DNA of 64,000 nt, taken from the NCBI RefSeq assembly GCF_004336805.1, contig NZ_SJXM01000009.1, positions 62,001-126,000 of the forward strand, read 5' to 3'. This stretch comes from Aeromicrobium sp. IC_218 (GTDB taxonomy: Bacteria > Actinomycetota > Actinomycetes > Propionibacteriales > Nocardioidaceae). This document shows positions 1 to 29,268 of the stretch, one piece after another (position 1 is the first letter of the stretch; each line of letters starts with the position of its first letter). The translations under genes and the position numbers were made by a program. The notes beneath the pieces are model-generated. The model was not told the origin of the DNA, searched no databases, and saw only the letters and a program-made list of their open reading frames with translations.

Positions 1-1060
<1,060 letters not shown>

Positions 1061-3013: not shown

Positions 3014-5800
3014 TCAGGCGGTCCGGTGCGGGGAGGACGGTCGCGCGACCGACGACGCGACCGGCGGAGTGGGCCTGCGGTGGCGCAGGACGAGCTTCAC
3101 GAGCTCCTCGACCACGACGAGCGACGCGGCCAGGCCGAGGCACACGCACCACTGGTCGAGGGTCAGCGCCGCGGTGCCGACGATCCGCTGGAGGAGGTCG
3201 AGCGACGTGACCAGGACGATCGCGGCCAGCGCGATGCCGTACCGCCGCAGCTGCGCGAGGGCCGGCACGGCGTCCCGGTCGAAGATCGTGCCGTCCTGGT
3301 CACGGCACAGCAGCGCGGCGACGAGATGGAACAGCGACAGGGTCGTGAGCAGCATCGTGGACGCCACGACCGCGTCGTCCAGCGACGGGTCGTCCTGGGC
3401 GACGCCGACCTGGTAGGCCACGAGCGAGCCCACCGTCATCACGGCACCCTGCACGCACAGCCGGACCCAGCTGCGGGCCGACAGGACGGGGGCGCCGACC
3501 GGCCGGGGCGGCCGGGCCATGAGGCCGTGGGCGGGGCGGTCGAACCCCAGGGCGATCGCCAGCGGGATGTCGACGACCATGTTCAGCCACAGGATCTGGA
3601 GCGGGTTCAGGGGCGCGCCGTCGGCCACGTCGAAGATGCCGGCCCCCAGGAACACCGCGATGTACGCGACGAGGGTGGACATCTGGAACCGCAGGTACTT
3701 GAGCAGGTTGTCGTAGAGGGTGCGGCCGTAGGAGACGGCGCCCACGATCGTGGCGAAGTTGTCGTCGGTCAGGATCATCACGGCGGCCTCCTGCGAGACC
3801 TCGGTGCCGGTGATGCCCATCGCGACGCCGATGTCGGCGGACTTGAGCGCCGGGGCGTCGTTCACGCCGTCACCGGTCATGGCGACGACCTCGCCCTTGC
3901 GCTGCAGCAGCCGGACGAGCCGCACCTTGTCCTCGGGCGCCACTCGCGCGACGACGCCGATGTCGTCGAGCCGACCGGTCAGCTCCTCGTCGCTCATCGC
4001 GGCGAACTCGTGCCCGGTGACCGCCCGGCCGGGGATGCCGAGCTCGGACGCGATCGCCGCCGCGGTCGTGGCGTGGTCGCCGGTGATCATGCGCACGCGG
4101 ATGCCGGCCTCGCGGCACTCGGCGATGGCGTCGCGGGCCTCCGCGCGCGGCGGGTCGACGATGCCGACCATCGCGAGCAGGGTCAGGTCGTCGACCAGTG
4201 CGAGCAGGTCGCCGGTCAGCGGGGTCGCCGGGTCGAGGTCGCGGCGGGCGACGACCATGACGCGCTCGCCCGCCTCGGCGATGCTGTCGTTGGTCTCCGC
4301 CGCCAGCCGCCGGGACTCGGCGGTCAGCGGCACCAGCGTCCCCTCGGGGTGGCGGAGCGTGGACGAGCGGGCGAGCAGGACGTCCGGTGCGCCCTTGACG
4401 AAGCAGCGCAGGACCGGGCGACCGTCCTCGTCGGCCATCTGGTGGAAGGTCGCCATGAACTTGTGCTCGGAGTCGAACGGGACCTCGGCCACGCGCGGGA
4501 GCGCCGCCCTCGTCTGCGTGATGTCGAGGCCGCCCTTCGCGCCGAGGACGATGAGGGCGCCCTCGGTGGGGTCGCCGATCAGTCGCTCGCCGTCGAGCAC
4601 GGCGTCGGCGCACAGCACCATCGGCAGGAGGTAGGGGTCGAGGTCGTGGCGCTGGCCGCCGACGTGGCTGATCGTGCCCCGGGTGCTGTAGCCCTCGCCC
4701 GAGACGGTCCAGCGGTGGTGCCCGGGGACGACGAGCTGGCGGGCGGTCATCTTGTTCAGCGTGAGCGTGCCGGTCTTGTCCGAGCAGATCGCCGACGTCG
4801 ACCCGAGGGTCTCGACGGCCGGCAGCCGCTTGACGATGGCGTGGCGCCGGGCGATCTCGCGGGTGCCCATCGACAGCAGGGCCGTCACGACCGCCGGCAG
4901 CCCGGTGGGGATGGCCGCCACGGCGAGGGCCACGGCGGTGACGAAGAGGGTGTCGAACTCCTCGCCACGACCCAGCCCGAGCAGCAGCACCAGGACGAGG
5001 GCGGCTCCCGCGATCGCGGCGATGACCTTCGACAGCGAGTCCAGCTGCTTCTGCAGGGGCGTCTTGCCCGACTCGGTGCTGGCCAGCATGTCGGCGATGT
5101 GGCCGATCTCGGTGGCCATGCCGGTCGCGGTGACGACCAGCTCGCCTCGGCCGCGGGTCACGGAGGTGTTCATGTACGCCATGCACGTGCGGTCGCCCAG
5201 CGGCACGTCCCCGCCGGACACCGGGTCGGGCGACTTGGCCACCGGCAGGCTCTCCCCGGTGAGGGCGGCCTCCTCGATCTCGAGGGTCGCGGCGACGCAG
5301 ACCCGGCCGTCGGCGGGCACGCGGTTGCCGGCCTCCACCAGCACGACGTCCCCGGGCACGAGCTCGGCGGCGTCGACCTCCAGCACGCGGCCGCCGCGCC
5401 GCACGCGCGCGACCGTGCGCATCATCTGGGCCAGCGCCTTCACGCTCTCCTCGGCCTTGGCCTCCTGGCGCAGGCCGATGACGGCGTTCAGCACGGTCAG
5501 CCCGGCGAGCACGAGGGTGGTGCCGGTCTCGCCCGTGACGACCTGGTTGACCACTGCGGCGGCGAGCAGGACCAGCTGCATGAAGTCCTGGTACTGACGC
5601 AGGAACGCCCGGAAGCCGGACTCGCCGGCCGACTCGGTCAGCCGGTTGGGGCCCACCGACGCCAACCGGTCCGCCACCTGCTCGGGGGACAGCCCGGTCG
5701 CGAGGTCGACGTCCAGCGCGGCGGCGACGCCGGCGGCGTCGGTGCTCGCCGGGTCGCTCGCGGTGCCCGGGTCTCGGTGCGGGGCGTGGTCCGTGGTCAT
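3014..5800 (-). CDS. P-type cation-transporting ATPase, substrate uncertain
   Basis: A 928-residue P2-like ATPase with all catalytic landmarks: N-terminal cation-ATPase domain, actuator loop TGES at 181-184, phosphorylated Asp341 in DKTGT, and hinge TGDGVND at 642-648. About ten membrane helices are expected. The transport site is odd. The M4 motif is IPTGLP (Thr299) where Ca2+ pumps have PEGLP, M5 lacks the usual Asn/Glu ligands (FQMSTLVAY), and M6 reads LWLNMVVD, keeping Asn and Asp but not Thr. A generic 'calcium ATPase' label is therefore unsafe; H+ or a monovalent ion is possible. The ATG at 5800 lies 65 bp downstream of palindromic operator A. The lipoprotein, repeat protein and RDD protein probably follow in the same operon. 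Confidence 0.9.
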   Translation of the reverse strand: MTTDHAPHRDPGTASDPASTDAAGVAAALDVDLATGLSPEQVADRLASVGPNRLTESAGESGFRAFLRQYQDFMQLVLLAAAVVNQVVTGETGTTLVLAGLTVLNAVIGLRQEAKAEESVKALAQMMRTVARVRRGGRVLEVDAAELVPGDVVLVEAGNRVPADGRVCVAATLEIEEAALTGESLPVAKSPDPVSGGDVPLGDRTCMAYMNTSVTRGRGELVVTATGMATEIGHIADMLASTESGKTPLQKQLDSLSKVIAAIAGAALVLVLLLGLGRGEEFDTLFVTAVALAVAAIPTGLPAVVTALLSMGTREIARRHAIVKRLPAVETLGSTSAICSDKTGTLTLNKMTARQLVVPGHHRWTVSGEGYSTRGTISHVGGQRHDLDPYLLPMVLCADAVLDGERLIGDPTEGALIVLGAKGGLDITQTRAALPRVAEVPFDSEHKFMATFHQMADEDGRPVLRCFVKGAPDVLLARSSTLRHPEGTLVPLTAESRRLAAETNDSIAEAGERVMVVARRDLDPATPLTGDLLALVDDLTLLAMVGIVDPPRAEARDAIAECREAGIRVRMITGDHATTAAAIASELGIPGRAVTGHEFAAMSDEELTGRLDDIGVVARVAPEDKVRLVRLLQRKGEVVAMTGDGVNDAPALKSADIGVAMGITGTEVSQEAAVMILTDDNFATIVGAVSYGRTLYDNLLKYLRFQMSTLVAYIAVFLGAGIFDVADGAPLNPLQILWLNMVVDIPLAIALGFDRPAHGLMARPPRPVGAPVLSARSWVRLCVQGAVMTVGSLVAYQVGVAQDDPSLDDAVVASTMLLTTLSLFHLVAALLCRDQDGTIFDRDAVPALAQLRRYGIALAAIVLVTSLDLLQRIVGTAALTLDQWCVCLGLAASLVVVEELVKLVLRHRRPTPPVASSVARPSSPHRTA

Positions 5801-5865
5801 CGGCGCCTCCCGTCGTGCCCGCGGGTGCGGGTCCCTCCACCTTCGCCACGAGGCGCCGGGGAGGC

Positions 5866-5884
5866 CTCACCCGGCGCGGGGGAT
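5866..5884 (-). promoter_or_regulatory. Island operator A (P-type ATPase promoter)
   Basis: CTCACCCGGCGCGGGGGAT matches the island palindrome, with the conserved CTCNCCCG half (CGGGNGAG on the coding strand) facing the ATPase gene. A GAAGGT hexamer at 5839-5844 on the minus strand, 21 nt downstream, could be the -10 box. The motif recurs at the same distance from five other promoters (see the sites at 9082, 10147, 13522, 14206 and 14890). Confidence 0.6.
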
Positions 5885-5896
5885 GAGTGGTCGGTG

Positions 5897-5916
5897 CCCA
5901 CCCCGCCGGGGGTGGG
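5897..5916 (+). promoter_or_regulatory. Weak seventh island operator candidate (DUF6325 promoter)
   Basis: CCCACCCC and GGGGTGGG form an 8-bp inverted repeat upstream of the DUF6325 gene. The gene-proximal half CGGGGGTG differs by one base from the consensus CGGGNGAG. A CAGCGT hexamer at 5938-5943 lies about 21 nt further on, as at the better sites. The match is imperfect and the centre is shifted by half a base, so this is tentative. Confidence 0.35.
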
Positions 5917-6006
5917 GACGGACGGGGCCGCGCGTGCCAGCGTCGAGGAGCGGCCGTCGGGGCCGCAGCCGCACCGCGCGAGGCGCGGGGACCCAGGGAG
6001 GAAGCC

Positions 6007-6495
6007 ATGACCGATCAGATCGACGGAAGCCAGGACGCGGACGGCGCCGGCGGCGAGGAGGGGACGACCCTCGGACCCATCGACTACCTCGCCGTCGAGT
6101 TCCCGGGCGGACGCCTGGAAGGGCGCGGGCTCGCGGCCCTGCTCGACCTCGTGGACCGGGGGATCATCCGGCTGCTCGACCTGCGGGTGGCCAAGGTCGC
6201 CGAGGACGGCAGCGCGGTCGCGGTCGAGCTCGCCGACCTGGACGCCGACGGCACGATCGACCTGGCCGTGTTCTCCGGGGTGGAGTCCGGCCTGCTCGAC
6301 GACGACGACGTGGCCGAGAGCGCCACGCTGACGGCGCCGGGCAACGCGGTCGGCGTGCTGGTCTACGAGAACACGTGGGCCCGTCCGTTCGTCGCCGCCC
6401 TGCGCGGGGCCGGCGCCGAGGTCGTCGCCAGCGGCCGCATCTCCGCCGACGAGGTCGCGGCCGCGCTGGACGACCTGGACGGCGGGCAGGCCTGA
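6007..6495 (+). CDS. DUF6325 family protein
   Basis: A 162-residue soluble, acidic protein. The core has LGPIDYLAVEFPG (residues about 22-34), a VAVELADLDADG strand-turn, and VGVLVYENTWARPF, which place it in the DUF6325 group of small actinobacterial proteins. In layout it resembles the DUF1269 proteins found later in the island, where an ALFV or VLVYE strand follows a variable middle. The ATG at 6007 follows an AGGGAGGAAG ribosome-binding site. It is divergent from the ATPase gene and followed by a strong hairpin at 6510-6541, so it is probably monocistronic. The function is unknown; a stress-related role is inferred from context only. Confidence 0.8.
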   Translation: MTDQIDGSQDADGAGGEEGTTLGPIDYLAVEFPGGRLEGRGLAALLDLVDRGIIRLLDLRVAKVAEDGSAVAVELADLDADGTIDLAVFSGVESGLLDDDDVAESATLTAPGNAVGVLVYENTWARPFVAALRGAGAEVVASGRISADEVAAALDDLDGGQA

Positions 6496-6509
6496 GCGTG
6501 GTCCGGGAC

Positions 6510-6541
6510 CGTCCGTCGCGGGTGTTCACCCGCGACGGACG
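6510..6541 (+). terminator. Perfect 15-bp hairpin after the DUF6325 gene
   Basis: CGTCCGTCGCGGGTG is followed by TT and then its exact reverse complement. The stem starts 14 bp after the stop codon. There is no T-tract, as is usual for GC-rich actinobacterial terminators. It separates the DUF6325 gene from the SHOCT-LuxR pair. Confidence 0.7.
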
Positions 6542-6638
6542 ATCCCGCGCGCGACGGAGCCGCCTTCACTGGGACCCGGGCGGTCGTGGTGCCTGCCACG
6601 GGTGACCCGCCCGAGTGGTCGGACGGAAGGAACGGACC

Positions 6639-6926
6639 ATGGGACTTCTTCGAGGAATGGCGCGCACGGCCGTGGTGGCGGGGACGGCGACGGCGGTGTC
6701 CAACCGCGTCTCGCGGCGGCAGGCCGGCCGGTGGGCCGAGCAGGACGCGCTGCACGCGCAGGCGCAGTACGAGGCTCCGCCGCAGTACGCGGCGCCGCCA
6801 CCCGCGCCCGCCTCGTCGGGCGACGACGTGATCGCCCAGCTGGAGCGGCTCGGCGAGCTGCGGGAGAGCGGTGTCCTGACGGACGCGGAGTTCGCGGCGC
6901 AGAAGGCACGTCTGCTCGGGTCATGA
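6639..6926 (+). CDS. SHOCT domain protein
   Basis: A 95-residue protein. The N-terminus ([20 protein letters not shown]) is a short hydrophobic or amphipathic helix. A Gln/Ala/Pro linker follows (residues 45-60), and then a C-terminal SHOCT domain: [21 protein letters not shown] and [13 protein letters not shown] domains are short helical oligomerisation or membrane-association modules with no known catalysis. A GGAAGGAA ribosome-binding site precedes the ATG. The stop overlaps the ATG of the LuxR gene that follows (ATGA), so the two are probably made together. Confidence 0.85.
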
Positions 6927-8191
6927 GCGGGGCGGGCTCGGCGGCGCTGGACCGCGTCCGGACCGCCTCCGACCGGCTCGCCCACGGTGACTGGTCCGGG
7001 GGCGGCGACGCGCTGCGCGAGGCCCTGCGGCACGTGCCGGCGAGCCATCGGTCGCACCCGCTCGTGCGGCGGGGCTGGCGCGACGCCGGGACGGCGGTCG
7101 CCCTCGACGAGCGGTGGGACGACGCCGGAGCGGTGGAGCGCGAGCTGCGCGGGGCCGCCGGTGGCGACGTCGCGCGCCGGCTCGCCCTGGAGGGCACCCG
7201 TGCCGTGGGGCTGGCGCTCGCCGGGCGACCCCGCGACGCCCTGCGTGCGGTGACCGGCGTCCGCCGCATCGCGGTCGACGCCGGGATGACCTCGTTGTGC
7301 GCGGCGCTCGACCTGGCCGAGACGCTCGTCGCCCGGGAGACCGGCGATCGCGAGCTGGCCGAGTCTGCCCTCGAGCAGGCCGCCCGGGACTCGCGGACGA
7401 CAGGGTTCGGGCCGCTCGTGCCGACCCTCGCGCTCGTGCAGCTGCGGCTCGAGACCGGACGTCCGGAGCAGGCGGCGGTCGCGCTCGCCCGCGCCGACGC
7501 GACGGCCTGGGACCGGAGCGAACCGTCGCCGGGCAGCGGCGTCCGCAGCTGCCTCGGGTCGGCGCACCTGACGCTGTGCCTCGTGCGTGGCGACGTCGAC
7601 GGCGCCCGGTCGTGGGTCGAGGTCGTCACCGACCCGTTCTGGGGTCCCGCCGGGGAGGCGAGGATCCTGCTCGCCCAGGGTCGTGGTGACGCGGCCGCGA
7701 CCGTGCTCGCCCGGGCCCGGCCGCGCGGGCCGCGGCACGAGGTCGTCGGTGGTCTGCTGACGGCCCGCGCGCTGGCGGGGCGCGACCGGGAGGCGGCGCT
7801 CGGACGAGCGGGGGTCGCGGCCGAGGTCGCCGTGCGCCACGGGATGGTGCGGTCGGTCGCCGCCGAGGGAGGGACCGCGACCGACCTGCTCGAGCGCGAG
7901 GCGTGGCGGGTGCCGTCGGCCTGGATGGACCGGGTGCGGCACGCCCAGGCGCCGGTGCCGGTGGCGGAGGTCCCGCCGACGTGGCCGCTCGAGGGGCTCA
8001 CCGGACGCGAGCGCGAGGTGCTCCGTCTGCTGCCCGGCCGGCTCACCCTGCGGGAGGTCGCCGACGAGCTGGTCGTGTCGCCGAACACGCTGAAGTTCCA
8101 CCTGCGGACGGTCTACCGCAAGCTCGGCGCCGGCTCGCGCACCGAGGCGGTCGCCGTCGCGCGCCGGGCCGGGCTGCTGCCGCGCGTCTAG
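6923..8191 (+). CDS. LuxR-family regulator without ATPase domain
   Basis: A 422-residue protein made of Ala/Leu/Arg-rich helical repeats of TPR type (residues about 1-340) and a C-terminal LuxR helix-turn-helix: [12 protein letters not shown] at about 357, [15 protein letters not shown] at about 391. No Walker A motif is present, so unlike MalT it cannot be a STAND ATPase by itself. It is translationally coupled to the SHOCT protein. It is a plausible regulator of the palindromic operators in this island, because LuxR-type dimers bind 18-20-bp palindromes, but nothing in the sequence links it to them directly. Its last 4 bp overlap the converging DUF7144 gene. Confidence 0.85.
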
Positions 8192-8646
8192 GCTGCGTGG
8201 CCCCCGCTGCCCGGCGCCTCGACGTCGCGGAGCAGCGTGCACAGGGCCCGCACCACGAGCACGTCGAAGGCGATGACGATCGACGTCCACAGCGGGTAGA
8301 CCGGCAGGAAGGCGAAGTTCGCCAGCATGGACGCGCCGGCGACGACGAGTCCCGTCACGAACCCCCACGACTGCCCGGTCAGGATGCCGGCGGCGACGGC
8401 CACGGACAGCAGGCCGATCACCAGGTGCACCCAGCCCCACGCGGTGAGGTCGAAGGCGTAGGCGTAGTCGTCGCCGCCGGTCAGCAGCTCGTCGTCGGCG
8501 AGCGCAGCGACGCCCTGGACGATCGACAGCAGCGCGGTGACCAGCAGCACGACCGCGGCCACCTGGCTCATGACCCGGGCGCGGGCCACGGCCGGGGCCG
8601 GGCGGTCCGGTCCGGCCGTCGCCCCCGACTCGTGCCGGCCGTTCAC
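8188..8646 (-). CDS. DUF7144 family four-helix membrane protein (copy 1)
   Basis: A 152-residue protein with four hydrophobic helices. It carries the family pattern GVAAL near the end of helix 1, TAWGWVHLVIGLL opening helix 2, and FLPVYPLWTSIVIAFDVLVVRALC in the last helix. Two paralogues lie at 9666-10082 and 13026-13445. The GTG start was chosen because it overlaps the stop of the upstream gene (GTGA); an internal ATG 28 codons later would give a shorter protein. It is the second gene of an operon driven from operator B at 9082. Function is unknown. Confidence 0.8.
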   Translation of the reverse strand: MNGRHESGATAGPDRPAPAVARARVMSQVAAVVLLVTALLSIVQGVAALADDELLTGGDDYAYAFDLTAWGWVHLVIGLLSVAVAAGILTGQSWGFVTGLVVAGASMLANFAFLPVYPLWTSIVIAFDVLVVRALCTLLRDVEAPGSGGHAA

Positions 8647-9023
8647 GCCAGGGCCTTGGCCTTCAGCGCCGCGTACTCGGGCTCGGAGATGGTGCCGTCG
8701 TCCAGCAGGGCCTTGGCCTGGGCGATCTGGTCCGGTGCCGAGGGCGTGCTGCTCGCGACCGAGCGGATGTACGCGTCCTGCGCCGCCCGGTTGCGGCTGA
8801 CCATCTCGGCCTGACGCTCGGCCATGCCCCGGCCACGTGCGATCAGGTACACCAGCGCGGTCAGGAAGGGCACGAAGATGAGGCACACGACCCAGACGGC
8901 CTTCAGGCCGCCGGAGAGGTCCTGGTCGCGGAAGACGTCCGCCAGGATGCTGAACATCACCATGAGGTAGGCGATGAAGGCGAAGCTGACGACGATGAAC
9001 CAGATGACGTCCCAGAAGTCCAT
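8643..9023 (-). CDS. PLDc_N / SHOCT two-domain membrane protein
   Basis: A 126-residue protein. The first 65 residues form two hydrophobic helices with the PLDc_N look (FRDQDLSGGLKAVWVVCLIFVPFL). After a charged linker the C-terminal 30 residues form a SHOCT module (IAQAKALLDDGTISEPEYAALKAKAL). PLDc_N here is a membrane anchor only; there is no phospholipase HKD motif. A GAAGGAG ribosome-binding site precedes the ATG at 9023. It is the first gene of a two-gene operon with the DUF7144 protein and lies 58 bp downstream of operator B. The role is unknown. Confidence 0.85.
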   Translation of the reverse strand: MDFWDVIWFIVVSFAFIAYLMVMFSILADVFRDQDLSGGLKAVWVVCLIFVPFLTALVYLIARGRGMAERQAEMVSRNRAAQDAYIRSVASSTPSAPDQIAQAKALLDDGTISEPEYAALKAKALA

Positions 9024-9081
9024 GGGAACCACTCCTTCGGCTTGACTGATCCCTGGATAGTCCCCGCGCCGGGTCTGCCGT

Positions 9082-9100
9082 CTCACCCGGTCCGGGCGAG
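9082..9100 (-). promoter_or_regulatory. Island operator B
   Basis: CTCACCCGGTCCGGGCGAG is a near-perfect palindrome (7 of 8 arm positions). On the minus strand a TATCCA hexamer (9059-9054) begins exactly 22 nt downstream, as at sites C, D and F. The site would be centred near -44 relative to the inferred transcription start of the PLDc_N-SHOCT/DUF7144 operon. Confidence 0.7.
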
Positions 9101-9112
9101 ATGCGCGGTGAC

Positions 9113-9634
9113 TCAGGCGTCGCGGCGCGCGAGGTCGCGGACGGCGGTCGCGAGACGGGGCGGCGCGTCGTCGCGCAGCATCGCGTGCTCCAGCCGGACG
9201 TCGCCCCGGGCCCGCCCGCGCTCGATGACCAGGCGGATCTCGTCCAGGTCGGCGTCGGAGGAGAGCACGAGCAGCGCCGACGTGCCCGGTACGAGCCCGT
9301 CGCGGACGTCGGCCAGGAAGTCGCGCTCGATGCCCGTGCCGGCCAGACGCGTGGCCAGCAGGTCCAGGCCGGCCGCGGGGGTGCCCGGCGTCGAGCCGGC
9401 GACGAGCACGGCCACCAGGGGTCCGAGGACCGACTCCGGTCCGCGAGCCCAGGGCCCGCGGTGCCGCAGGTGGACGACCCGGGGCGCATGGGCGCCGCGC
9501 ACCCACGTCACGGTGACGGCGTCGACGACGGTGACGTGACCACGTTGCTGCAGGTCGCGGAGGCGCACCTCGCCGGCGGCCGCACCTCGCGGCGAGTCGT
9601 AGTGCCACACGGTCAGCGCGCTCGTACCGGGCAC
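9113..9634 (-). CDS. DUF1269-like protein, variant without glycine zipper
   Basis: A 173-residue protein related to the DUF1269 protein at 13623-14120. Both start with LTVW-x-[YF]-DSP, have a VTV-x-D-A-x-TV-[ST]-W strand, then VPGTSAL/TPGTSAL and a C-terminal half for predicting membrane or protein contact. In this copy the central Gly/Ala-rich segment that forms a glycine-zipper helix in the paralogue is replaced by a less regular stretch (GPLVAVLVAG). The GTG at 9634 is preferred because GGGAGGG lies 7 nt upstream. It follows the DUF7144 gene at 9666 by 31 bp and is probably co-transcribed from operator C. Confidence 0.7.
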   Translation of the reverse strand: MPGTSALTVWHYDSPRGAAAGEVRLRDLQQRGHVTVVDAVTVTWVRGAHAPRVVHLRHRGPWARGPESVLGPLVAVLVAGSTPGTPAAGLDLLATRLAGTGIERDFLADVRDGLVPGTSALLVLSSDADLDEIRLVIERGRARGDVRLEHAMLRDDAPPRLATAVRDLARRDA

Positions 9635-9665
9635 GATCAGTCCCTCCCGCACGCCGGTCCGGGCC

Positions 9666-10082
9666 TCACTCGTCGGCGATGAGCCGGCACAGCGACCACA
9701 GCACGAGCACGTGGAACGCGACGGCGGCGAGCGCCCAGAACGGGAAGTACGGGACGAACAGGAAGCTGACCACCGCGCCGACGACGGCCAGCAGCAGCCC
9801 GGCCATGCGGGCCCAGCGCGCACCCATCAGCAGTGCCCCGCCCACGAGCGTCGTGAGGGCACCGACGGTGACGTGCACCCAGCCCCAGGTCTTCAGGTCC
9901 AGCTCGGCGAAGTACCGCGGGCGTCCGGTGAACAGGTCGTCCCCGGCCAGGGCGGCGACGCCCTCGAGCGCCATCATGATGCCGACCGTCGCGAGCAGGA
10001 ACCCGGCGAACGCGGCGGTCTCCCAGGCGAGGCCGCCGGGTCGAGGACGAGCGCCCTCGGTGGTGGGTGCGCTGGTGGTCAT
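9666..10082 (-). CDS. DUF7144 family four-helix membrane protein (copy 2)
   Basis: A 138-residue protein with four membrane helices and the family motifs GVAAL, LKTWGWVHVTVGAL and FVPYFPFWALAAVAFHVLVLWSLC. The conserved WGWVH followed by a helix, and the aromatic/proline loop before the last helix, are shared with the copies at 8188 and 13026. It is the first gene of a unit that probably includes the DUF1269-like gene. The ATG lies 64 bp downstream of operator C. No catalytic residue stands out; a structural or small-ion role in the membrane is possible but unproven. Confidence 0.85.
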   Translation of the reverse strand: MTTSAPTTEGARPRPGGLAWETAAFAGFLLATVGIMMALEGVAALAGDDLFTGRPRYFAELDLKTWGWVHVTVGALTTLVGGALLMGARWARMAGLLLAVVGAVVSFLFVPYFPFWALAAVAFHVLVLWSLCRLIADE

Positions 10083-10146
10083 GGTCCCTCCGGTCGTCGA
10101 CGGGGGTGGATGCGTCGCACCGTAAGGCCGTCACCGCGCCCACGGG

Positions 10147-10165
10147 CTCGCCCGAACAAGGCGAG
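10147..10165 (-). promoter_or_regulatory. Island operator C
   Basis: CTCGCCCGAACAAGGCGAG has the invariant CTCNCCCG half and a CTCGCC/GGCGAG palindrome. On the minus strand a TACGGT -10-like hexamer (10124-10119) begins exactly 22 nt downstream, ahead of the DUF7144 gene (copy 2). Confidence 0.7.
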
Positions 10166-10178
10166 TGCGGTCAGCAGG

Positions 10179-12848
10179 TCACAGCAGGTGCTGCGTCCGG
10201 GCGACGGCCAGGGCCTCGCTACGACGGGAGACGGAGAGCTTCGCGTACAGGTTGGACACGTGCGTCTTCACGGTGTTCTCCGACACGACGAGGGTCGCCG
10301 CGATGTCCGCGTACGTGGCGCCCCGGGCGAGCTCGGCCAGCACGTCGCGCTCGCGCGAGCTCAGCCCGACGTGGGCGACCGGCTGCGTGGCTCGTTCCCG
10401 CTCGGCCTGGGTCGCGATAGCCGGCGCGAAGGTCGCTGTCGTGTCCGGCAGACCCGTCCGGGCTGCGACGAGCATCGCGAGCCACGAGCTCGCCGCCGGC
10501 GCGTCCCGCTCGGCGAGGACGTCGAGCAGCGTCGACAACGGCGTGCCGTGCCGTGACCAGCCGAGGAACGGCACCGCGTTGTTGCGGACGGCCGTGCCGA
10601 CGACCGCGTCCCGCAGGTCGTCCAGCGCGGACTCGCGGTCGCCCAGGACGTCGAGCAGCTGCGCCCGGCAGGTGAGGGCCAGCTCGCGGGAGGCGGGCTG
10701 GGCGAACCGGGCCGACGAGACGGCCTCGGTGAACCGCGCGACCGCGGTCCGGACGTCGCCGCTGAGGTCGGCGTCGAGGCCGCGGGCCAGGGCCAGCTCG
10801 CCGGGCGCGTCGACGTCCGAGAGCTCGCTCTCGACCGCGCGCAGACCGGGCCGGTCGAGGGTCAGGTAGGCCAGGAACGCCCGCTCGACGAGCACCACGG
10901 TCCGCAGGTGGTCCGGGAGCGCGCCGGCACCGCCGGGCACGTCGAGCGGGACCGACAGGATGCGCTCGGCCTCGTGGACCGAGCCGGCGCGCAGGGCCAG
11001 TCGTGACTGCAGCAGGCGCAGCCAGAACCGGGTGGCGGGGTCGGCGGGGTGGGCGGCCACCGTGTCCGGAGGGACGGCCAGCGGGTCGGACGGCCACGGC
11101 AGCCCGGGGAGCCCGGCCAGGAGCAGCGCGACAGCGACCCGCGTCCGCGCGTACCGCGGTTGCCACGCGGGGGAGCGGTCGAGCATGGCCGCGGCCTGGC
11201 GCGCGACCTCGGTGCAGGCGCGTTCTCGACCGAGCATGTACTCGGTCAGCGCGAGGTGGGTGGTGGCAGCCAGGCGGAGCGCGGGCAGGTCGCGGGTGCG
11301 ACCCAGCTCGATCGCGGACGTCAGGTTGCGTTCGGCGGTCGTCAGGTCGCCGGTCCAGTTCTGCGTGATGCCCAGCTCGGTCAGCAGCTGGGGGAGCAGC
11401 GCGTGGTCGACGGCACCGGTGGCCGGGGACGCCGTCACGTCGTCGGCGAGACGCTGGGCGTCGGCGACCGCACCGGTGAGGGGCAGCAGACCGAGCCGGG
11501 CGAGCACCAGCCCGGTGAGCGCGAGGACCATCCGGCGCGACGGGGTGTCGGGCTCGTGGGTCCCGGCCGGAAGTGCACGCAGCCGCTCGCTCCAGCGACG
11601 GGCGGAGGCGGTGTCACCCGCGACCCAGCGCTCCAGGGCGACGGCGAGCCAGGCGTCCGGCTCGGCCTCCACGTCGCCGGCCTGGTCACGGGCGAACCGG
11701 GCGATGGCGGCGCCCTGCCCGCGCATGAGCATCGTGACGCCCTCGCGACCGAGGAGCCGTGCGGCCTGCTCGTGGTCGTGCACCGCGACGAGACGCCCGA
11801 ACGCCAGCTCGACGTCGCCACGGGCCACGTCGAGCGCGACCGCGCGGGTCACGGTTGCGCGGGCCCGCACGACGTCCACGCCACCGGAGACGAGCCGACG
11901 GCGGACGACCTCGACGAGCAGCGGATGTATGCGGAACCGGGCGTCGGGGTCGAGGGCGAACGGTCCCTCGACCGACGCCCCGTCGAGGCGGGTGACGAGC
12001 AGGCCGGTGCTCTGCAGCTGGCCCAGGAGCTCACCGGCGTCCTGGTCGCCGGACAGGTGCACGGCCGTCGCGGGCGTGACCACCTGCTCCGGTGCGATGC
12101 ACAGCAGCAGGTGACGCTCGCGCGGCGTCAGCGACGCGAACACCTCGCCGATGACCGGGCCGGCGATGCCGGTCGCGCCACGCGCGTAGCGCTGCGCGGC
12201 CGCGACGGGGTCCGCCGCGGTGGCGACCGCACGGGCCATCAGCACCACGGCCGCGCACCAGCCCTCGGCGTGCCGGGTGATCGTCTCGACGACGGCGGGG
12301 GAGTCCGTCCGCACGTGCGCGGCGACCAGCTCGGCCGCCTCGTCGTCGTCCAGGCGCAGCACGTCGCCGCGGAGCAGGCTGAGGTGCCCGAGCAGCTCCG
12401 GCACGAGTCGGCGGATCGGCAGGTCCCAGCGGCTCAGCAGCACGACGCGCATCGAGGCGGGGTCCGTCGAGAGCCGGTGCTCGAGCAGGTCGAGCGCCTC
12501 GCTGGGCAGCAGGTGGGCGTCGTCGACCACCACCACGCGGGGGCCGGACCCGTCGGACGCAGCCAGGTCGAGCTGCTCGGCCAGCCGCTCGGCGTCCCAC
12601 TGCGGGTCCGCCTGCACCCAGCCGACCGGGGCCCGGTGCCGCAGCCTCGCCCAGCCGCCGACGCCGAGCGTCTTCCCCGTGCCCGCCGGGGCGACGAGCA
12701 GCGTGAGCGGACCCCGGACCGCCGCGTCGAGACGGTCGAACAGCGCGCGGCGCCGGACGTACGCCCGGGGCAGGTGGGGCGGGGCCCCGCCGGGACGTTC
12801 CGCCGGTTCGAGGATCCTTGTCCGTTCTTGCTGTCGTTCGTCAACCAT
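10179..12848 (-). CDS. MalT-like LuxR-family STAND ATPase regulator
   Basis: An 889-residue large ATP-binding LuxR regulator. It has Walker A APAGTGKT (53-60), a Walker B-like VVVVDDAHLL near 118-127, a winged-helix region, a long TPR-rich middle (about 400-800) and a C-terminal LuxR helix-turn-helix (LSSRERDVLAELARG and TVKTHVSNLYAKLSVSRR). In the MalT family an inducer and ATP trigger oligomerisation and activation of target promoters. The ATG at 12848 is preceded by GGGAGGGAG; an upstream in-frame ATG has poorer support. Lying in the middle of the operator-bearing genes, it is my first candidate for the island's activator. Its own promoter region shows no copy of the palindrome. Confidence 0.9.
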   Translation of the reverse strand: MVDERQQERTRILEPAERPGGAPPHLPRAYVRRRALFDRLDAAVRGPLTLLVAPAGTGKTLGVGGWARLRHRAPVGWVQADPQWDAERLAEQLDLAASDGSGPRVVVVDDAHLLPSEALDLLEHRLSTDPASMRVVLLSRWDLPIRRLVPELLGHLSLLRGDVLRLDDDEAAELVAAHVRTDSPAVVETITRHAEGWCAAVVLMARAVATAADPVAAAQRYARGATGIAGPVIGEVFASLTPRERHLLLCIAPEQVVTPATAVHLSGDQDAGELLGQLQSTGLLVTRLDGASVEGPFALDPDARFRIHPLLVEVVRRRLVSGGVDVVRARATVTRAVALDVARGDVELAFGRLVAVHDHEQAARLLGREGVTMLMRGQGAAIARFARDQAGDVEAEPDAWLAVALERWVAGDTASARRWSERLRALPAGTHEPDTPSRRMVLALTGLVLARLGLLPLTGAVADAQRLADDVTASPATGAVDHALLPQLLTELGITQNWTGDLTTAERNLTSAIELGRTRDLPALRLAATTHLALTEYMLGRERACTEVARQAAAMLDRSPAWQPRYARTRVAVALLLAGLPGLPWPSDPLAVPPDTVAAHPADPATRFWLRLLQSRLALRAGSVHEAERILSVPLDVPGGAGALPDHLRTVVLVERAFLAYLTLDRPGLRAVESELSDVDAPGELALARGLDADLSGDVRTAVARFTEAVSSARFAQPASRELALTCRAQLLDVLGDRESALDDLRDAVVGTAVRNNAVPFLGWSRHGTPLSTLLDVLAERDAPAASSWLAMLVAARTGLPDTTATFAPAIATQAERERATQPVAHVGLSSRERDVLAELARGATYADIAATLVVSENTVKTHVSNLYAKLSVSRRSEALAVARTQHLL

Positions 12849-12969
12849 GACCGGGCTCCCTCCCGGGTCGTCCACGCTCGGAACGATGATCCGCGGGTTC
12901 CTGGCGCGCTGGACAGGACGGCCGAGACCGTCCCTGTCAGCCACCGTACGCACGCGCGGGTCCGATCGG

Positions 12970-12990
12970 CCTCGTCCACGGCGGACGAGG
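12970..12990 (-). terminator. Hairpin downstream of DUF7144 copy 3
   Basis: CCTCGTCC and GGACGAGG pair perfectly around ACGGC. The hairpin lies 35 bp past the stop of the 13026-13445 gene, in the direction of its transcription, and before the LuxR gene. No T-tract is present. Confidence 0.45.
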
Positions 12991-13025
12991 AGCGCGGTGT
13001 CGTCCGCCCGGGCGCGGGCGGTCGG

Positions 13026-13445
13026 TCACAACCGGGTGCCGCGGCTGACCTGCGTGCACAGCGCCCAGATGACGGCGACGTTGAACACGATGATCGCCAG
13101 CGACCACCACGGGTAGTAGGGCAGGAACACGAAGTTGCTGACGCACGCCAGGGCCGCCACGACGACACCGGCGATGCGGGCGACGTCGTTGCCGACCAGG
13201 ATGCCGATCGCGACGAGCACGGCGATCACGCCGACGACGAGGTGGACCCAGCCCCACGTCGTGACGTCCAGCTCGTACGTGTACTTCGGGCCGTCGACGA
13301 ACACCTCGTCCTCGCCGATGGCGGCCAACCCCTGCAGCACCTGGAACAGTCCGACGATCGCCAGCATGAAGCCGGCGAAGGCCGTGACGCCCAGCGCCAC
13401 CAGCTCCGACGTCGATCCGTCCAGTCGTGAGGTGCTCGTGCTCAT
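13026..13445 (-). CDS. DUF7144 family four-helix membrane protein (copy 3)
   Basis: A 139-residue protein and the clearest of the three DUF7144 paralogues. Helix 1 ends in VLQGLAAIGEDE, TTWGWVHLVVGVIAVL opens helix 2, helix 3 is AGVVVAALACVSNFV, and helix 4 follows LPYYPWWSLA. It has its own promoter with operator D 76 bp upstream of the ATG and TAGCCT as a -10 box, and a hairpin downstream, so it is probably monocistronic. Three copies within 5 kb, each in an operator-controlled unit, suggest the family is central to what this island does. The molecular function is unknown. Confidence 0.85.
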   Translation of the reverse strand: MSTSTSRLDGSTSELVALGVTAFAGFMLAIVGLFQVLQGLAAIGEDEVFVDGPKYTYELDVTTWGWVHLVVGVIAVLVAIGILVGNDVARIAGVVVAALACVSNFVFLPYYPWWSLAIIVFNVAVIWALCTQVSRGTRL

Positions 13446-13521
13446 CGGTGCCTCCCGGTTCGTGCCGGCGACGGTCCCGCCGGCCGTGGTCGCAGGCTAG
13501 GGACGCGCGAGGCGCCCGGAC

Positions 13522-13540
13522 CTCACCCGCAACGGGCGAG
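13522..13540 (-). promoter_or_regulatory. Island operator D
   Basis: CTCACCCGCAACGGGCGAG is the best palindrome of the set (7 of 8 arm positions). On the minus strand TAGCCT (13499-13494) begins 22 nt downstream and makes a good actinobacterial -10 box. The place of a -35 box is taken by the edge of the palindrome (GGTCCG), as expected for an activator-dependent promoter. Confidence 0.75.
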
Positions 13541-13576
13541 TCCAGGCGTCGGGAGCGGTCCCTGGACGGACGCGGT

Positions 13577-13606
13577 CCGGCCCGGGACCTCGTGGTCCCG
13601 GGCCGG
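13577..13606 (-). terminator. Perfect 13-bp hairpin after the DUF1269 gene
   Basis: CCGGCCCGGGACC, loop TCGT, then the exact reverse complement, 16 bp beyond the stop of the 13623-14120 gene. It lies between that gene and operator D and has no T-tract. Confidence 0.65.
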
Positions 13607-13622
13607 CGCTGGGCGCTGGGGA

Positions 13623-14120
13623 TCAGGCGTCGGCGAAGACCTGACGCAGCGCCTGCTCCTGGTCCTCGGACAGGTGCGTGAAGATGAGGTCCGAGGGCTG
13701 GTGGCTGGCGAAGGCGTCCTTCACCTTGTCGATCACCGCGTCGGACGTCATCACGAACAGGGCCGAGGTGCCGGGGGTCACCTGGTCCCGGACCTTGTTG
13801 ATGAACCCGTCGTCGATGCCGACGTCGGAGAGCGAGCCGGCCAGCGCGCCGGTGGCGGCGCCCACCGCGGCTCCGAGCAGCGGCACGAAGAAGATGAGGC
13901 CGAAGAGCATGCCCCAGAACGCGCCGCCGAGCGCCCCGACGCCGGTGGTCGGCGTCCCTTGGTGCGTCTTCGGCTTCTTGCGTCCCTGCTCCCACGAGAC
14001 GGTGGCCGAGTCCAGCACGGTGATCACGTTCTGCTTGGCCAGCTGCTGCAACGTGCGTGCCGCCTCGTCGGCGCCGGACGGGGAGTCGAACTTCCAGACG
14101 GTGAGAGTGGCCTGTGCCAT
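13623..14120 (-). CDS. DUF1269 family protein with glycine-zipper helix
   Basis: A 165-residue protein. Strand-forming ends (LTVWKFDSP at 6-14; PGTSALFVMTSD near 118) flank a central Gly/Ala/Phe-rich segment (about 60-98; GVGALGGAFWGMLFGLIFF and GAAVGAATGALAG) that looks like a glycine-zipper membrane helix pair. DUF1269 proteins are widespread and uncharacterised; many lie near stress or ion-transport genes. The ATG at 14120 is preceded by AGGAGCAGCG. It is probably monocistronic, with operator E upstream and a hairpin downstream. The paralogue at 9113 has lost the zipper. Confidence 0.85.
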   Translation of the reverse strand: MAQATLTVWKFDSPSGADEAARTLQQLAKQNVITVLDSATVSWEQGRKKPKTHQGTPTTGVGALGGAFWGMLFGLIFFVPLLGAAVGAATGALAGSLSDVGIDDGFINKVRDQVTPGTSALFVMTSDAVIDKVKDAFASHQPSDLIFTHLSEDQEQALRQVFADA

Positions 14121-14205
14121 CGCTGCTCCTGGGTGTGGGTGCGACGCCGGGCGTCGCGGTCGGTCGGTTGACGTCCTCAGTCCATCCACGACGCCCGGGC
14201 CCGGC

Positions 14206-14224
14206 CTCCCCCGTGAGGGGTGAA
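14206..14224 (-). promoter_or_regulatory. Island operator E (weaker)
   Basis: CTCCCCCGTGAGGGGTGAA keeps the CTCNCCCG half but pairs at only 5 of 8 arm positions. A TGGACT hexamer (14184-14179, minus strand) begins 21 nt downstream, before the DUF1269 gene. The position and conserved half support it; the sequence alone would not. Confidence 0.5.
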
Positions 14225-14240
14225 CGTGGGCGGCGTCGGG

Positions 14241-14828
14241 TCAGGTCCGGGCCGTCCGGTCGTCGTCGGCGTCGTGGCTGCGGACGGACTGCGCCCGGTG
14301 GCCGGCGAGGGTGAGCGCGACCCAGGCGAGGGCGAACAGCACGGCGGCGCCGCCGGACTCGGGCCGCCAGAGCAGGTCCGCGTCGCCGTCGAGCAGCCGG
14401 CCGAGGCCGGACAGCAGCAGGGCGGCACCGGCGAGGGCGGTGCCCCAGCGCAGGAACCGGACGCGGAACCGGTTCGCGAGCAGGCCGCCGAGCACCGCGA
14501 CGGTGGGGACGAACACGGCCGCCAGCACCCAGCTCGTCCGGTCGTCGCCGCCGGAGGAGTCCGCGAGCACGAAGACCTTGGCACCCACGACGGCACCGAC
14601 GCAGGCGCCCCCGACGAAGAAGACGAAGGCCGCCATGAGGAACATGCCGGCCAGGGCGAGACCGGCCCCGCAGGCCGACACCAGCAACGCCGTGCCGGTG
14701 GAGGCGTGGAACGCCTCGGCGAGCAGCCAGCCCGCGCCGAACCCGGCGACGAGCACTCCCGCGCGGACCGACACCACGCCGAAGAAGCACAGGACCGCGC
14801 CGAGCACCACCAGCACGAGCTCGCTCAT
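14241..14828 (-). CDS. DUF4203/TMEM198-like membrane protein
   Basis: A 195-residue protein with about seven hydrophobic helices and a short acidic C-terminal tail (SHDADDDRTART). Small-residue helices (GAVLCFFGVVSVRAGVLVAG, FVGGACVGAVVGAK) resemble the DUF4203/TMEM198 group, whose function is unknown. The ATG at 14828 lies 61 bp downstream of operator F and is separated from the divergent gene at 15064 by that operator. The assignment to DUF4203 rests on general pattern only. Confidence 0.65.
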   Translation of the reverse strand: MSELVLVVLGAVLCFFGVVSVRAGVLVAGFGAGWLLAEAFHASTGTALLVSACGAGLALAGMFLMAAFVFFVGGACVGAVVGAKVFVLADSSGGDDRTSWVLAAVFVPTVAVLGGLLANRFRVRFLRWGTALAGAALLLSGLGRLLDGDADLLWRPESGGAAVLFALAWVALTLAGHRAQSVRSHDADDDRTART

Positions 14829-14889
14829 CGTGGGCCTCCCGGCGGTCGTCGTCCGGACGCCATGGTGGTGCGCCGCGGCGTGAAGGGTG

Positions 14890-14908
14890 CTCGCCCGATT
14901 CCGGTGAG
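14890..14908. promoter_or_regulatory. Island operator F, apparently bidirectional
   Basis: CTCGCCCGATTCCGGTGAG lies in a divergent intergenic region. On the minus strand CACCAT (14867-14862) begins 22 nt away, ahead of the 14241-14828 gene. On the plus strand TACGGT (14931-14936) also begins exactly 22 nt away, ahead of the 15064 gene. The same spacing on both sides suggests that one bound dimer could activate both promoters. Confidence 0.65.
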
Positions 14909-14930
14909 CCAGCGTCGAGGACCCGAGCCG

Positions 14931-14936
14931 TACGGT
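14931..14936 (+). promoter_or_regulatory. -10 box for the 15064 operon
   Basis: TACGGT fits the actinobacterial TANNNT -10 pattern and is identical to the -10 box after operator C. It is 22 nt from operator F. Transcription would start near 14943, leaving an untranslated leader of about 120 nt. Confidence 0.5.
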
Positions 14937-15063: not shown

Positions 15064-15282
15064 ATGAGGGGCGAGGCGATGGCGAGGATGCTGATCCGGG
15101 TCGACGCCGACCTCAACGAGGACCTGCTCACCGCCTTCCCGCAGCTGGTCGCCCGCCACCACCCGGCCTCGACCACGCTGAGCGGGGACGTCGCCGACCA
15201 GCAGGAGCTGCAGGGCATCCTCAACCTGCTGACGTCGTTGGGCGTGGACGTCGTCGAGGTCGTCACGATCCCCGAGGCCTGA
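15064..15282 (+). CDS. Small hypothetical protein, 72 residues
   Basis: I do not recognise a named family. The protein has a VLIR-type opening strand (MLIRVDADLNEDLLTAF), a central helix and a closing VDVVEVVTIP strand, suggesting a small alpha/beta fold. Three in-frame ATGs (15064, 15079, 15088) are possible. The first has GGGGAG upstream, and the second has GAGGGG at a slightly better distance and would give 67 residues. It is followed after 3 bp by the K+ channel gene, so a regulatory or accessory role for the channel is possible but not shown. Confidence 0.65.
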   Translation: MRGEAMARMLIRVDADLNEDLLTAFPQLVARHHPASTTLSGDVADQQELQGILNLLTSLGVDVVEVVTIPEA

Positions 15283-19546: not shown

Positions 19547-22500
19547 ATGGCCTCACGGGGGAGAGGGCGGGCCGCTGACGGCCCGGCGAGCCAGGCGCTG
19601 CTGGACGCAGGACGGTTCTTCACGCGCTGGGACGAGACGGACGACGGCCGGGCGGTCTTCCGGGAGGGCGGGCGCGCGGGCGACGTCTTCTACCGGGACC
19701 GCTGGAGCCACGACAAGGTCGTGCGGTCCACGCACGGCGTGAACTGCACCGGGTCCTGCTCGTGGAAGGTCTACGTCAAGGACGGGATCATCACCTGGGA
19801 GACCCAGCAGACCGACTACCCCTCGGTCGGACCCGACCGACCCGAGTACGAGCCCCGCGGATGCCCCCGCGGGGCTGCCTTCTCCTGGTACACCTACTCG
19901 CCGACGCGGGTGCGCTACCCGTACGTGCGCGGCGTGCTGCTCGAGATGTACCGCGAGGCCAAGGCCCGGCTGGGCGACCCGGTGCTGGCGTGGGCCGACG
20001 TGACGGCCGACCCCGAGCGACGCCGTCGCTACCAGCGCGCCCGGGGCAAGGGCGGCCTCGTGCGGGCCAGCTGGGAGGAGGCCGTCGAGATCGCGGCCGC
20101 CGCGCACGTCCACACGATCAAGACCCACGGGCCGGACCGCTGCGCCGGGTTCTCGCCGATCCCCGCGATGTCGATGGTGTCGCACTGCGTCGGCACCCGG
20201 TTCATCCAGCTCATCGGCGGCGTCATGACGTCCTTCTACGACTGGTACGCCGACCTGCCGGTGGCCAGCCCGCAGGTCTTCGGCGACCAGACGGACGTGC
20301 CGGAGTCCGGAGACTGGTGGGACGCGACCTACCTGATGATGTGGGGCTCGAACGTCCCGGTCACCCGCACGCCGGACGCGCACTGGATGGCCGAGGTGCG
20401 CTACCGCGGCACCAAGGTCGTCACGGTCAGTCCCGACTACGCCGACAACACCAAGTTCGCCGACGAGTGGATGCCGGCCCAGGCCGGCACCGACGGCGCG
20501 CTGGCGATGGCGATGGGGCACGTCATCCTCACCGAGCACTACGCGCAGGGCCGCACGCCGTTCTTCGCCGACTACGTGCGCCGGTACTCCGACCTGCCGT
20601 TCCTGGTGCGGCTCGACGAGCACGCCGACGGCGGGCTGGTGCCCGGCAAGTTCCTCACCGCCGCCGACCTCGGCGGAGCCGAGGACGAGGACGCCTGGAA
20701 GACGGTCGTGCTCGACGGGGCCACCGGCGAGCCGGTGGTGCCGAACGGCTCGCTGGGGTTCCGCTACGCCGAGTCCGGCAAGGGACGCTGGAACCTCGAC
20801 CTGGAGGGCGTCGAGCCGCTGCTGTCCGTCGCCGACGGGGAGGGGGCGGTGGACGCGGAGCCGGTCGAGGTGCTGCTGCCGGCGTTCGTGGCCGCGGACG
20901 GCGAGGGCTCGGTGCTGCGCCGCGGCGTCCCCGCCTCCCGTGTCGGCGGCCACCTGGTCACGACGTCGCTGGACCTGATGCTCGCCCAGTACGGCGTCGT
21001 CCGCGAGGTGGCCGGGGCGCCGCTGCCGGGGGAGTGGCCGACCGGGTACGACGACGCGAGCACCCCCTACACGCCCGCGTGGCAGGCCGAGATCACCAGC
21101 GTCCCGGCCGAGCAGTGCCTGCGGGTCGCGCGCGAGCTGGCCCAGAACGCCGAGGAGTCCGGCGGACGCTCGATGATCATCATGGGCGCCGGCGTCTGCC
21201 AGTGGTTCCACGGCGACGCGACCTACCGGGCGATGCTCGCGCTGCTGATCCTCACCGGCTGCATGGGCCGCAACGGCGGCGGCTGGGCGCACTACGTCGG
21301 GCAGGAGAAGTGCCGGCCGGTCACCGGCTGGATCTCGCTGGCCAACGCGCTGGACTGGTCGCGCCCGCCGCGCACCATGACGGGCACGTCCTACTGGTAC
21401 ATGCACACTGGGCAGTGGCGCCAGGACGGCTACTCCGCCGACTCGCTCGCCTCCCCGCTCGCGAAGGGCCACCTCCAGGGCAAGCACACCGCCGACGCGA
21501 TCGCGCAGTCCGCGCGGCTGGGCTGGATGCCGTTCTACCCGCAGTTCGCCACCAACCCGCTGCAGGTCGCCGAGGACGCCGAGGCCGCGGTCGCCGAAGG
21601 ACGGGCGCAGGACGCCGCGTCGTACATCGCCGAGGCCCTGCACCGGCGCGAGCTCACCCCGGCCATCGAGGACGTGGACGCCCCCGAGAACTGGCCGCGC
21701 ACCCTCGTGCTGTGGCGCTCGAACCTGCTCGGCTCGTCGGCCAAGGGCAACGAGTACTTCCTCAAGCACCTCCTGGGCACCCACTCCAACGTCCGCGGTG
21801 TCGACGGCGAGGGCGGTGAGGCGCCGGACGTCCCGCGCCCGAGCGAGGTCGCCTGGCACGACGAGGCGCCCGAGGGGAAGCTCGACCTGCTCGTCTCGGC
21901 CGACTTCCGCATGACGTCCACGACGCTGCTGTCGGACGTCGTCCTGCCGGCGGCGACCTGGTACGAGAAGCACGACCTGTCGTCCACCGACATGCACCCG
22001 TTCGTGCACGCGTTCACCCCGGCGATCGACCCGCCGTGGCAGGCCAAGAGCGACTTCGACACCTTCCACCTGCTCGCCCAGCGGTTCTCCGAGATGGCCC
22101 GCACGCACCTGGGGGTGCGCAAGGACCTGGTGAGCGTGCCGCTGCAGCACGACACCCCCGGTGAGACCGCCCAGCCCGGCGGCCGCGTCGTCGACTGGCG
22201 CGACGCCGACCGGCCCGGACGCCCGGGCCGCGACATGCCGGTGTTCACCGTCGTGGAGCGCGACTACACCGCCATCGCCGACAAGCTGGCCACGGTCGGC
22301 CCGCTCGCCGACCGGCTCGGGTTCACGGTCAAGAACGTGACCTACCGGCTCGAGGAGGAGGTCGAGCGGCTGGCGCGCAAGAACGGCGTCATGCTCGGTG
22401 GCGCCGGCGACGGACGTCCGGCGATCGACACCGACACCAAGCTGGCCGAGGCGATCCTCTCCTTCTCCGGCACCACCAACGGCGAGCTCGCGGTGCAGGG

Positions 22501-27607: not shown

Positions 27608-27730
27608 TCAGCCCTGGCGGGCCTTGAGGCGCGGGTTCTGCTTGTTGATCACGTAGGTGCGTCCGTGACGGCGCACGACCTGCGAGCCCGGCTGGTTCTT
27701 CAGCGAGCGGAGCGAGTTCCTGACCTTCAT
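27608..27730 (-). CDS. rpmJ: Ribosomal protein L36, zinc-free (C-) paralogue
   Basis: A 40-residue L36: [11 protein letters not shown] opening, [18 protein letters not shown] middle. The zinc-binding C-x2-C...C-x4-H ligands of ordinary L36 are missing; there is no cysteine at all. Such C- copies replace zinc-containing L36 when zinc is short, freeing zinc for the cell. Its ATG overlaps the L32 stop (ATGA), so it is the last gene of the Zur-controlled L31-CobW-L32-L36 unit. Confidence 0.93.
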
Positions 27731-27918: not shown

Positions 27919-27947
27919 GGGTCCTCCTGCGGTGGTGTGAACAGCGA

Positions 27948-29251: not shown

Positions 29252-29268
29252 GCTGCTCCTTCCGTGTG

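Follow-up and report, generated by a model that had tools for sequence, protein, structure and literature searches.

The 64,000-nt stretch of the Aeromicrobium sp. IC_218 genome analyzed here (the window; positions 62001-126000 of the 135-kb contig C25, G+C content 75%) raises the question why six closely similar palindromes stand at a fixed distance from promoter-like hexamers upstream of mostly uncharacterised genes, and which protein reads them. A first-pass annotation had located these palindromes at 5866, 9082, 10147, 13522, 14206, and 14890, all in the same orientation, and all six were found as described. The refined element reads TCACCCG-N3-CGGGTGA, followed after 21 or 22 nt by a -10-like box of the form [T/C/G]ANNNT. 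That the sites belong to a real regulon is nearly certain. The promoter layout makes activation likely, and the operator-binding activator is probably a large MalT-like LuxR (LAL) regulator; taken as a whole, a single activator-dependent regulon bound by LALs is the explanation that we consider reasonably probable.

The sites were scored with a symmetric weight matrix built from 13 sites of C25, using a threshold of 12 bits. The half-site CTCNCCCG (minus strand CGGGNGAG), which is proximal to the promoter, is unchanged in all six palindromes of the window, as had been claimed. Operator 1 (5866-5884, minus strand, 16.3 bits) is located upstream of a P-type ATPase gene and is followed after 21 nt by GAAGGT (5839-5844). 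Three further operators on the minus strand have their hexamer at 22 nt, namely operator 2 (9082-9100) with TATCCA (9054-9059) upstream of a PLDc_N/SHOCT gene, and operators 3 (10147-10165) and 4 (13522-13540) with TACGGT (10119-10124) and TAGCCT (13494-13499), respectively, each upstream of a DUF7144 gene. The TATCCA hexamer of operator 2 also follows the site of the relative in locus L072. Operator 5 (14206-14224, minus strand) precedes a DUF1269 gene, with TGGACT (14179-14184) at 21 nt. Operator 6 (14890-14908) is flanked by boxes in both directions, CACCAT (14862-14867) on the minus strand and TACGGT (14931-14936) on the plus strand, both at 22 nt. These hexamers and spacings agree with the earlier annotation, as do the 58-85 nt between the palindrome and the minus-strand start codon at the six sites (61 nt for 14890, given a start at 14828). 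The palindrome at 14890 faces a plus-strand box and a 67-aa gene as well.

Additionally, a weaker operator (6525-6543, plus strand, 13.4 bits) with TTCACT (6565-6570) at 21 nt was found upstream of a SHOCT gene. The top-scoring operator of the contig (contig positions 61631-61649, 26 bits, TACCTT at 21 nt) precedes a LAL-type LuxR gene, which starts left of the window and whose 3′ part occupies 14-1060 (plus strand). A degenerate operator-like site (12971-12989, minus strand) with TACGGT (12943-12948) at 22 nt precedes the gene of an 889-aa LAL; its 4.3 bits are far under the threshold. One site of at least 12 bits, at 4694 (contig 66694), falls inside the coding sequence of the P-type ATPase and lacks a box.

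In the window, the pattern is not above chance at up to three mismatches (30 matches, 35.8 expected; 87 of 100 shuffled sequences reached as many). At up to two mismatches, 9 matches stand against 3.5 expected (2 of 100 shuffles), and at up to one mismatch 4 against 0.22, a number reached by none of the 100 shuffles. The whole 3.3-Mb genome holds 16 places with at most one mismatch, of which 9 lie within 36 kb of C25 and the other 7 are dispersed on other contigs; the motif is hence not equally frequent elsewhere. On C25, the matrix detected 18 sites of at least 12 bits, 13 of them being the training sites, and one in the reversed sequence. Seventeen of the 18 are intergenic, including contig position 76890 (window 14890) given the gene start at 14828, and they are spread across 25-77 kb of the contig. 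The six island promoters first noticed are therefore real members of a larger set that extends beyond the window. As this set reaches from about 0.4 to 37 kb left of the window start, the island must begin well left of the window.

The matrix derived from C25 alone finds the element in other genera and families, among them Nocardioides, Nocardia, Streptomyces, and Pseudonocardia. Loci with sites of at least 13 bits were obtained from Streptomyces, Nocardioides, Marmoricola, Mumia, Nocardia, Gordonia, Rhodococcus, Pseudonocardia, Promicromonospora, Williamsia, Aldersonia, Salsipaludibacter, and others. In held-out loci, 70 and 164 sites were recovered, against 6 in the reversed control in either case. 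The 101 loci centred on DUF7144 genes contain 41 exact palindromes with a 3-nt gap (40 distinct), a number that rises to 128 (124 distinct) when one mismatch is allowed; for a 2-nt gap the corresponding numbers are one and four, and the reversed controls gave none.

The distance to the box is conserved along with the palindrome. A pair was defined as a site and a called start 20-180 nt downstream, so that a site between divergent genes is counted twice. Scanning relatives for a box 21-22 nt away, as had been proposed, recovered the architecture: among 49 held-out site-gene pairs, a hexamer with A at position 2 and T at position 6 (NANNNT) occurs at a spacer of 21 nt in 22 and of 22 nt in 13 (together 35/49), and at 19, 20, or 23 nt in none. 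The same hexamer at 21 or 22 nt was present in 110 of 162 pairs from 79 named loci, and in 38 of 51 pairs from 40 loci fetched for their LAL gene, where about one was expected; its background rate is 0.9-1.5% per spacer. Across relatives, spacers of 20 and 23 nt are nearly empty. Locus L092, which duplicates a part of L072, was excluded from the 79-locus and LAL-fetched counts and kept in those on 101 and 80 loci. No -35 element is evident between site and box, the spacer columns reaching at most 0.8 bit; A2 and T6 of the box are conserved by construction in this comparison, as the sites used already carried them. Of 148 distinct promoters, 41 were used for the promoter alignment and model. 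Boxes on both sides of the operator occur at 35 sites (33 distinct) across the loci.

The placement of the site over a poor -35 region, at a fixed distance to the -10 box, is the layout of a class II activator-dependent promoter as far as sequence architecture goes. The activator-type regulon proposed at the outset is well supported, because the palindrome is nearly strict in its 3-nt gap, the box at 21 or 22 nt returns in held-out genomes, the -35 region is little conserved, operators are used in two directions and the sites are concentrated in an island. In such a mechanism, a dimeric GerE/LuxR-type protein would occupy TCACCCG-N3-CGGGTGA, with the promoter-proximal half-site covering the position that a -35 element would normally take and the centre of the palindrome lying presumably near -44. 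The bound activator would touch RNA polymerase on the -10 box, at a distance of 21 or 22 nt, and the symmetry of the operator would allow it to drive divergent promoters. The lux box of LuxR is likewise an inverted repeat, of about 20 bp and centred near -42 to -44, which overlaps the -35 place. The element described here resembles it in this placement and differs in its unrelated sequence, and no autoinducer-type regulator was identified here.

The candidate activators are one or more LALs encoded in the same clusters, with a Walker A motif near the N-terminus and a C-terminal GerE domain, some of whose genes carry the operator in their own promoter. They resemble MalT, SCO0877/SCO7173, and SCO6993, which are also large LuxR proteins with these two features, and they are encoded within the island; by analogy with MalT, the inducing signal is probably a ligand. 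The main candidate of the window is the 889-aa LAL (10179-12848, minus strand), in which a LuxR/GerE domain (PF00196) covers residues 829-882 with 58.7 bits. The motif APAGTGKT was read near its N-terminus and, with the large size, agrees with the N-terminal ATP-binding motif and the length typical of LALs; the nSTAND Pfam match reaches 19.3 of the required 34 bits. A second possible regulator is a LuxR (GerE) protein of 422 aa with weak TPR matches (6923-8191, plus strand).

LALs and operators are co-distributed. In the genus, 49 genomes were compared; seven of them have a best match below an E-value of 4e-4 (next best 1.05e-3 and 1.18e-3), and exactly these seven have DUF7144. All 7 carry a LAL of at least 300 bits, and three other genomes with LALs have no strong matches. 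In 149 genomes of the family, the 16 that have at least two matches at E≤0.002 all belong to the 41 LAL-carrying ones (E≤1e-60), an overlap with a probability of 8e-11 if genomes were independent; these counts can include one palindrome in both orientations. Eleven additional genomes have a single match at E≤0.002, three of them with a LAL (G018, G047, G132); in another single-match genome, G063, the LAL is just under the cut-off (4.6e-56). The seven matches in family genomes lacking a LAL are all within called coding genes, compared with one of the 21 checked among 53 matches in genomes with LALs. Outside the genus, 28 of 60 strong matches have a LAL gene no more than 20 kb away (1.2 expected). 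LALs are the third commonest family in the DUF7144-centred loci (31/101). Named by reading among the 60 largest clusters, the commonest other regulators there are LuxR-type response regulators (6 loci), IclR-type (6), and OmpR-type (5) regulators. A LAL is present in 23 of 60 named loci with sites of at least 13 bits and in none of the 19 without (p 0.0009).

In a quick maximum-likelihood tree of 82 LALs, 55 with and 27 without a site-bearing neighbourhood, the site label changes 8 times, compared with a mean of 22.9 for shuffled labels and none of 500 shuffles as low. A clade of 21 LALs from the window's family (e.g., L277-L294 and L307) has 20 neighbourhoods without operator. The neighbourhoods fetched are part of the family LAL matches, and L091, L092, and L304 were left out as the same records as L261, L072, and L103. 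Since some loci entered the set through DUF7144, others through a site or a LAL, and since neighbourhoods are inherited, the tree is support rather than proof. Co-occurrence, linkage, and tree clustering support binding of a LuxR protein to the operator indirectly, at the level of genome comparison. A GerE-type reader of the palindrome would also fit the half-site, which is shared with BldM, itself a protein with such a domain.

Several points weigh against the LALs as activators. Their genes show no clear excess of operators of their own over the remaining genes of these loci (9/36 vs. 231/1474 at 12 bits or more; with box 6/36 vs. 164/1474), and autoregulation, tried as a general proof, was only weakly supported. 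The 889-aa LAL gene has just the degenerate site, 37 of the 60 named site-bearing loci show no LAL of at least 700 aa in the fetched flank, and 25 of the 41 family genomes with a LAL have no two strong matches. The same operator is shared by several LAL subfamilies whose GerE helices differ. Part of the clustering in the tree may stem from the inheritance of gene neighbourhoods. Much of the pattern would also be expected if one regulator governed the entire island together with its LALs, and the LALs could possibly be mere passengers. The E-value cut-offs (4e-4 in the genus, at least two at 0.002 in the family) were picked after the ranking had been seen, the search model R1 was trained on promoters including the window's genus, and the scoring of LALs covered the best 6-18 candidates of each genome. 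LALs described in the literature also differ: in the passages available, MalT uses short asymmetric boxes, GGA[TG]GA, rather than one symmetric palindrome, and SCO6993 represses (PMC9628970).

The strongest alternative keeps regulon and architecture and assigns activation to another GerE-type protein encoded elsewhere, a BldM-like or other LuxR-type response regulator, with the LALs as mere regulon members. We regard it as rather unlikely. It draws on the BldM group I operator of Streptomyces, 5′-TCACcCgnncGgGTGA-3′, which has the same half-sites TCACCCG/CGGGTGA and which, according to the available part of the report, the BldM homodimer binds and activates (PMC4125116). BldM is a response regulator that contains a GerE-type domain, the genome studied here has 22 GerE matches, several of them in proteins of response-regulator size, and some LAL genes bear the operator like other targets. 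The published group I operators, however, have a 2-nt gap (16 bp) rather than 3 nt (17 bp), and a near-identical 2-nt form is given in the available text for S. griseus (PMC8914203). The 2-nt form TCACcCgnncGgGTGA does not describe the present sites, as the gap counts given above show, and the targets here are mostly membrane and uncharacterised proteins. Changing the gap by one base would rotate the half-sites against each other by roughly a tenth of a helical turn. The search for a BldM orthologue among the genome's GerE proteins gave no clear candidate, the best being 38% identical to BldM of S. scabiei. The latter was recognised by its size of 203 aa and its IMP dehydrogenase, sigma-factor, and WhiB-like neighbours, which we take to be the typical bldM neighbourhood, and SCO4768 is presumably bldM. 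A length of 203 aa is also given for SCO4768 in the part of the published table available (PMC3282765). LuxR-type response regulators occur in far fewer of the DUF7144 loci than LALs, and the family genomes with several sites all have a LAL. BldM was therefore set aside as regulator on account of the gap and the missing clear orthologue; by the features tested, the element would act like a LuxR-type class II operator and not like that of BldM.

A further alternative, which we consider improbable, is that the palindrome is a repressor operator over the -35 region and that the fixed spacing results from promoter occlusion. Its position over the -35 place would suit this, as would the reported role of the LAL SCO6993. 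Without an evident -35 consensus, however, the promoter would be weak unaided. Repressor sites generally tolerate varied positions, whereas here the spacing of 21 or 22 nt persists from family to family, with next to no cases of 20 or 23 nt. That the palindromes arose by chance in DNA of this base composition, which would fit their frequency at three mismatches, is practically ruled out by the enrichment at one mismatch, the N3 counts in the 101 loci, the recovery in held-out loci, and the fixed spacing found there.

LuxR-type control is also known from the DevR/DosR and OsdR dormancy regulon, and P-type ATPases belong to DevR/DosR-type regulons. The OsdR consensus as given in the accessible text, AGGGCCGATCGGCCCT, is unlike the operator described here (PMC5069765), and OsdR/DevR was set aside by comparison with this consensus alone. 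The LAL family is described as poorly studied in the part of the source available (PMC3282765). In the open-licence literature searched, available in part, no description of the N3 operator or of this regulon and no shared operator of this sequence for actinobacterial LALs was found. The matches listed there for the half-site CGGGTGA were only BldM-type N2 motifs, and nothing was found among the listed matches on DUF7144, or on LuxR with DUF1269 or SHOCT in Actinobacteria.

Within the window, the target of operator 1 is a P-type cation ATPase of 928 aa (3014-5800, minus strand). Divergent from it lies a DUF6325 gene (6007-6495, plus strand); no box was found in the plus direction here, and DUF6325 relatives are direct targets at other loci. 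The weaker operator at 6525 is followed by the gene of an 89-aa SHOCT-domain protein (6657-6926, plus strand). Operator 2 belongs to the PLDc_N/SHOCT gene (8643-9023, minus strand), with a DUF7144 gene (8188-8571, minus strand) on its 3′ side, and operators 3 and 4 to the DUF7144 genes at 9666-10082 and 13026-13445 (both minus strand). Control of two DUF1269 genes had been assumed. This holds for the target of operator 5 (13623-14120, minus strand), but the diverged DUF1269 gene at 9113-9652 (minus strand), located behind a DUF7144 gene and without a site of at least 12 bits of its own, is no direct target.

The minus-strand target of operator 6 encodes a 195-aa protein (14241-14828), membrane-like by reading. 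The label DUF4203-like could not be confirmed, as this protein has no Pfam match and its Nocardioides relative matches PF13886 (TM7S3/TM198-like) slightly under the cut-off. The plus-strand target, a previously overlooked gene (15079-15282), encodes a conserved 67-aa protein, a member of a family of about 65-67 aa (24 aligned). Two of its relatives gave no match in Pfam. Its predicted fold (pLDDT 89) has the order beta-alpha-beta-beta-alpha-beta, a ferredoxin-like order of strands and helices. The fold search returned nothing at E≤0.001 and only weaker matches, many of them ferredoxin-like.

The island further contains sulfatase-type and FGE genes, SulP permeases, ThrE, an amino-acid permease, peptidases, an AI-2E-type membrane protein, and a BrkB-like one, the latter under its cut-off. 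It also holds additional DUF7144 and DUF1269 genes and additional LAL regulators. Relatives in L073 and L087 confirmed the assignment to the sulfatase family.

Across the 101 loci, 167 genes were counted as direct targets (score of at least 11 and a box), a few being doubled since L092 repeats L072. They comprise DUF7144 (30), the 65-aa family (30), PLDc_N/SHOCT (24), DUF308 (12), LAL (7, one twice), sulfatases (6), and smaller groups, the names outside the window being taken from one representative each. The 65-67-aa family is among the most constant direct targets, with 26 of 30 members in a mainly Streptomyces cluster and 4 of 5 in a second one; for SHOCT genes the ratio is 24/41 and for the DUF308 family 12/17. 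Conservation upstream of DUF7144 orthologues proved partial: in 22 of 80 named loci a site of at least 12 bits stands directly upstream (19 of these, counted by eye, with a box at 21 or 22 nt), and in 58 it is missing from the 420 nt before the match. DUF7144 as a universal direct target was rejected on this count. In Rhodococcus (L120, L123, L127, L142), DUF7144 genes were observed that have neither a site of at least 13 bits nor a LAL in the flank that was fetched, so DUF7144 can occur outside the regulon.

A wider and more tentative reading is that several MalT-like LAL paralogues, probably with different ligands, read one symmetric operator throughout the phylum and govern an often bidirectional membrane or envelope programme. 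Its gene set would comprise DUF7144, DUF1269, DUF6325, DUF308, SHOCT/PLDc_N, P-type ATPase, sulfatase, and SulP genes and the 65-67-aa protein. The regulon joins some twelve protein families, several of them without a known function, as one co-regulated set across Actinomycetota. Their genes can be studied as one response instead of DUF by DUF, including in tractable Streptomyces species. LAL regulators gain a concrete predicted DNA target, and the half-site CGGGTGA is suggested to serve two regulons that are set apart by one base of spacing.

To the right, the island is adjoined by genes for a respiratory nitrate reductase (19547-26338, plus strand), the alpha subunit being assigned by molybdopterin domains and the beta and gamma subunits by Pfam; no operator of at least 9 bits was found between 17607 and 35793, a region that spans these genes. 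Finally, genes for the ribosomal proteins L32, L28, L33, and S14 were identified by Pfam beside a CobW-type gene (27727-30023), a grouping which presumably marks zinc-independent paralogues controlled by zinc.

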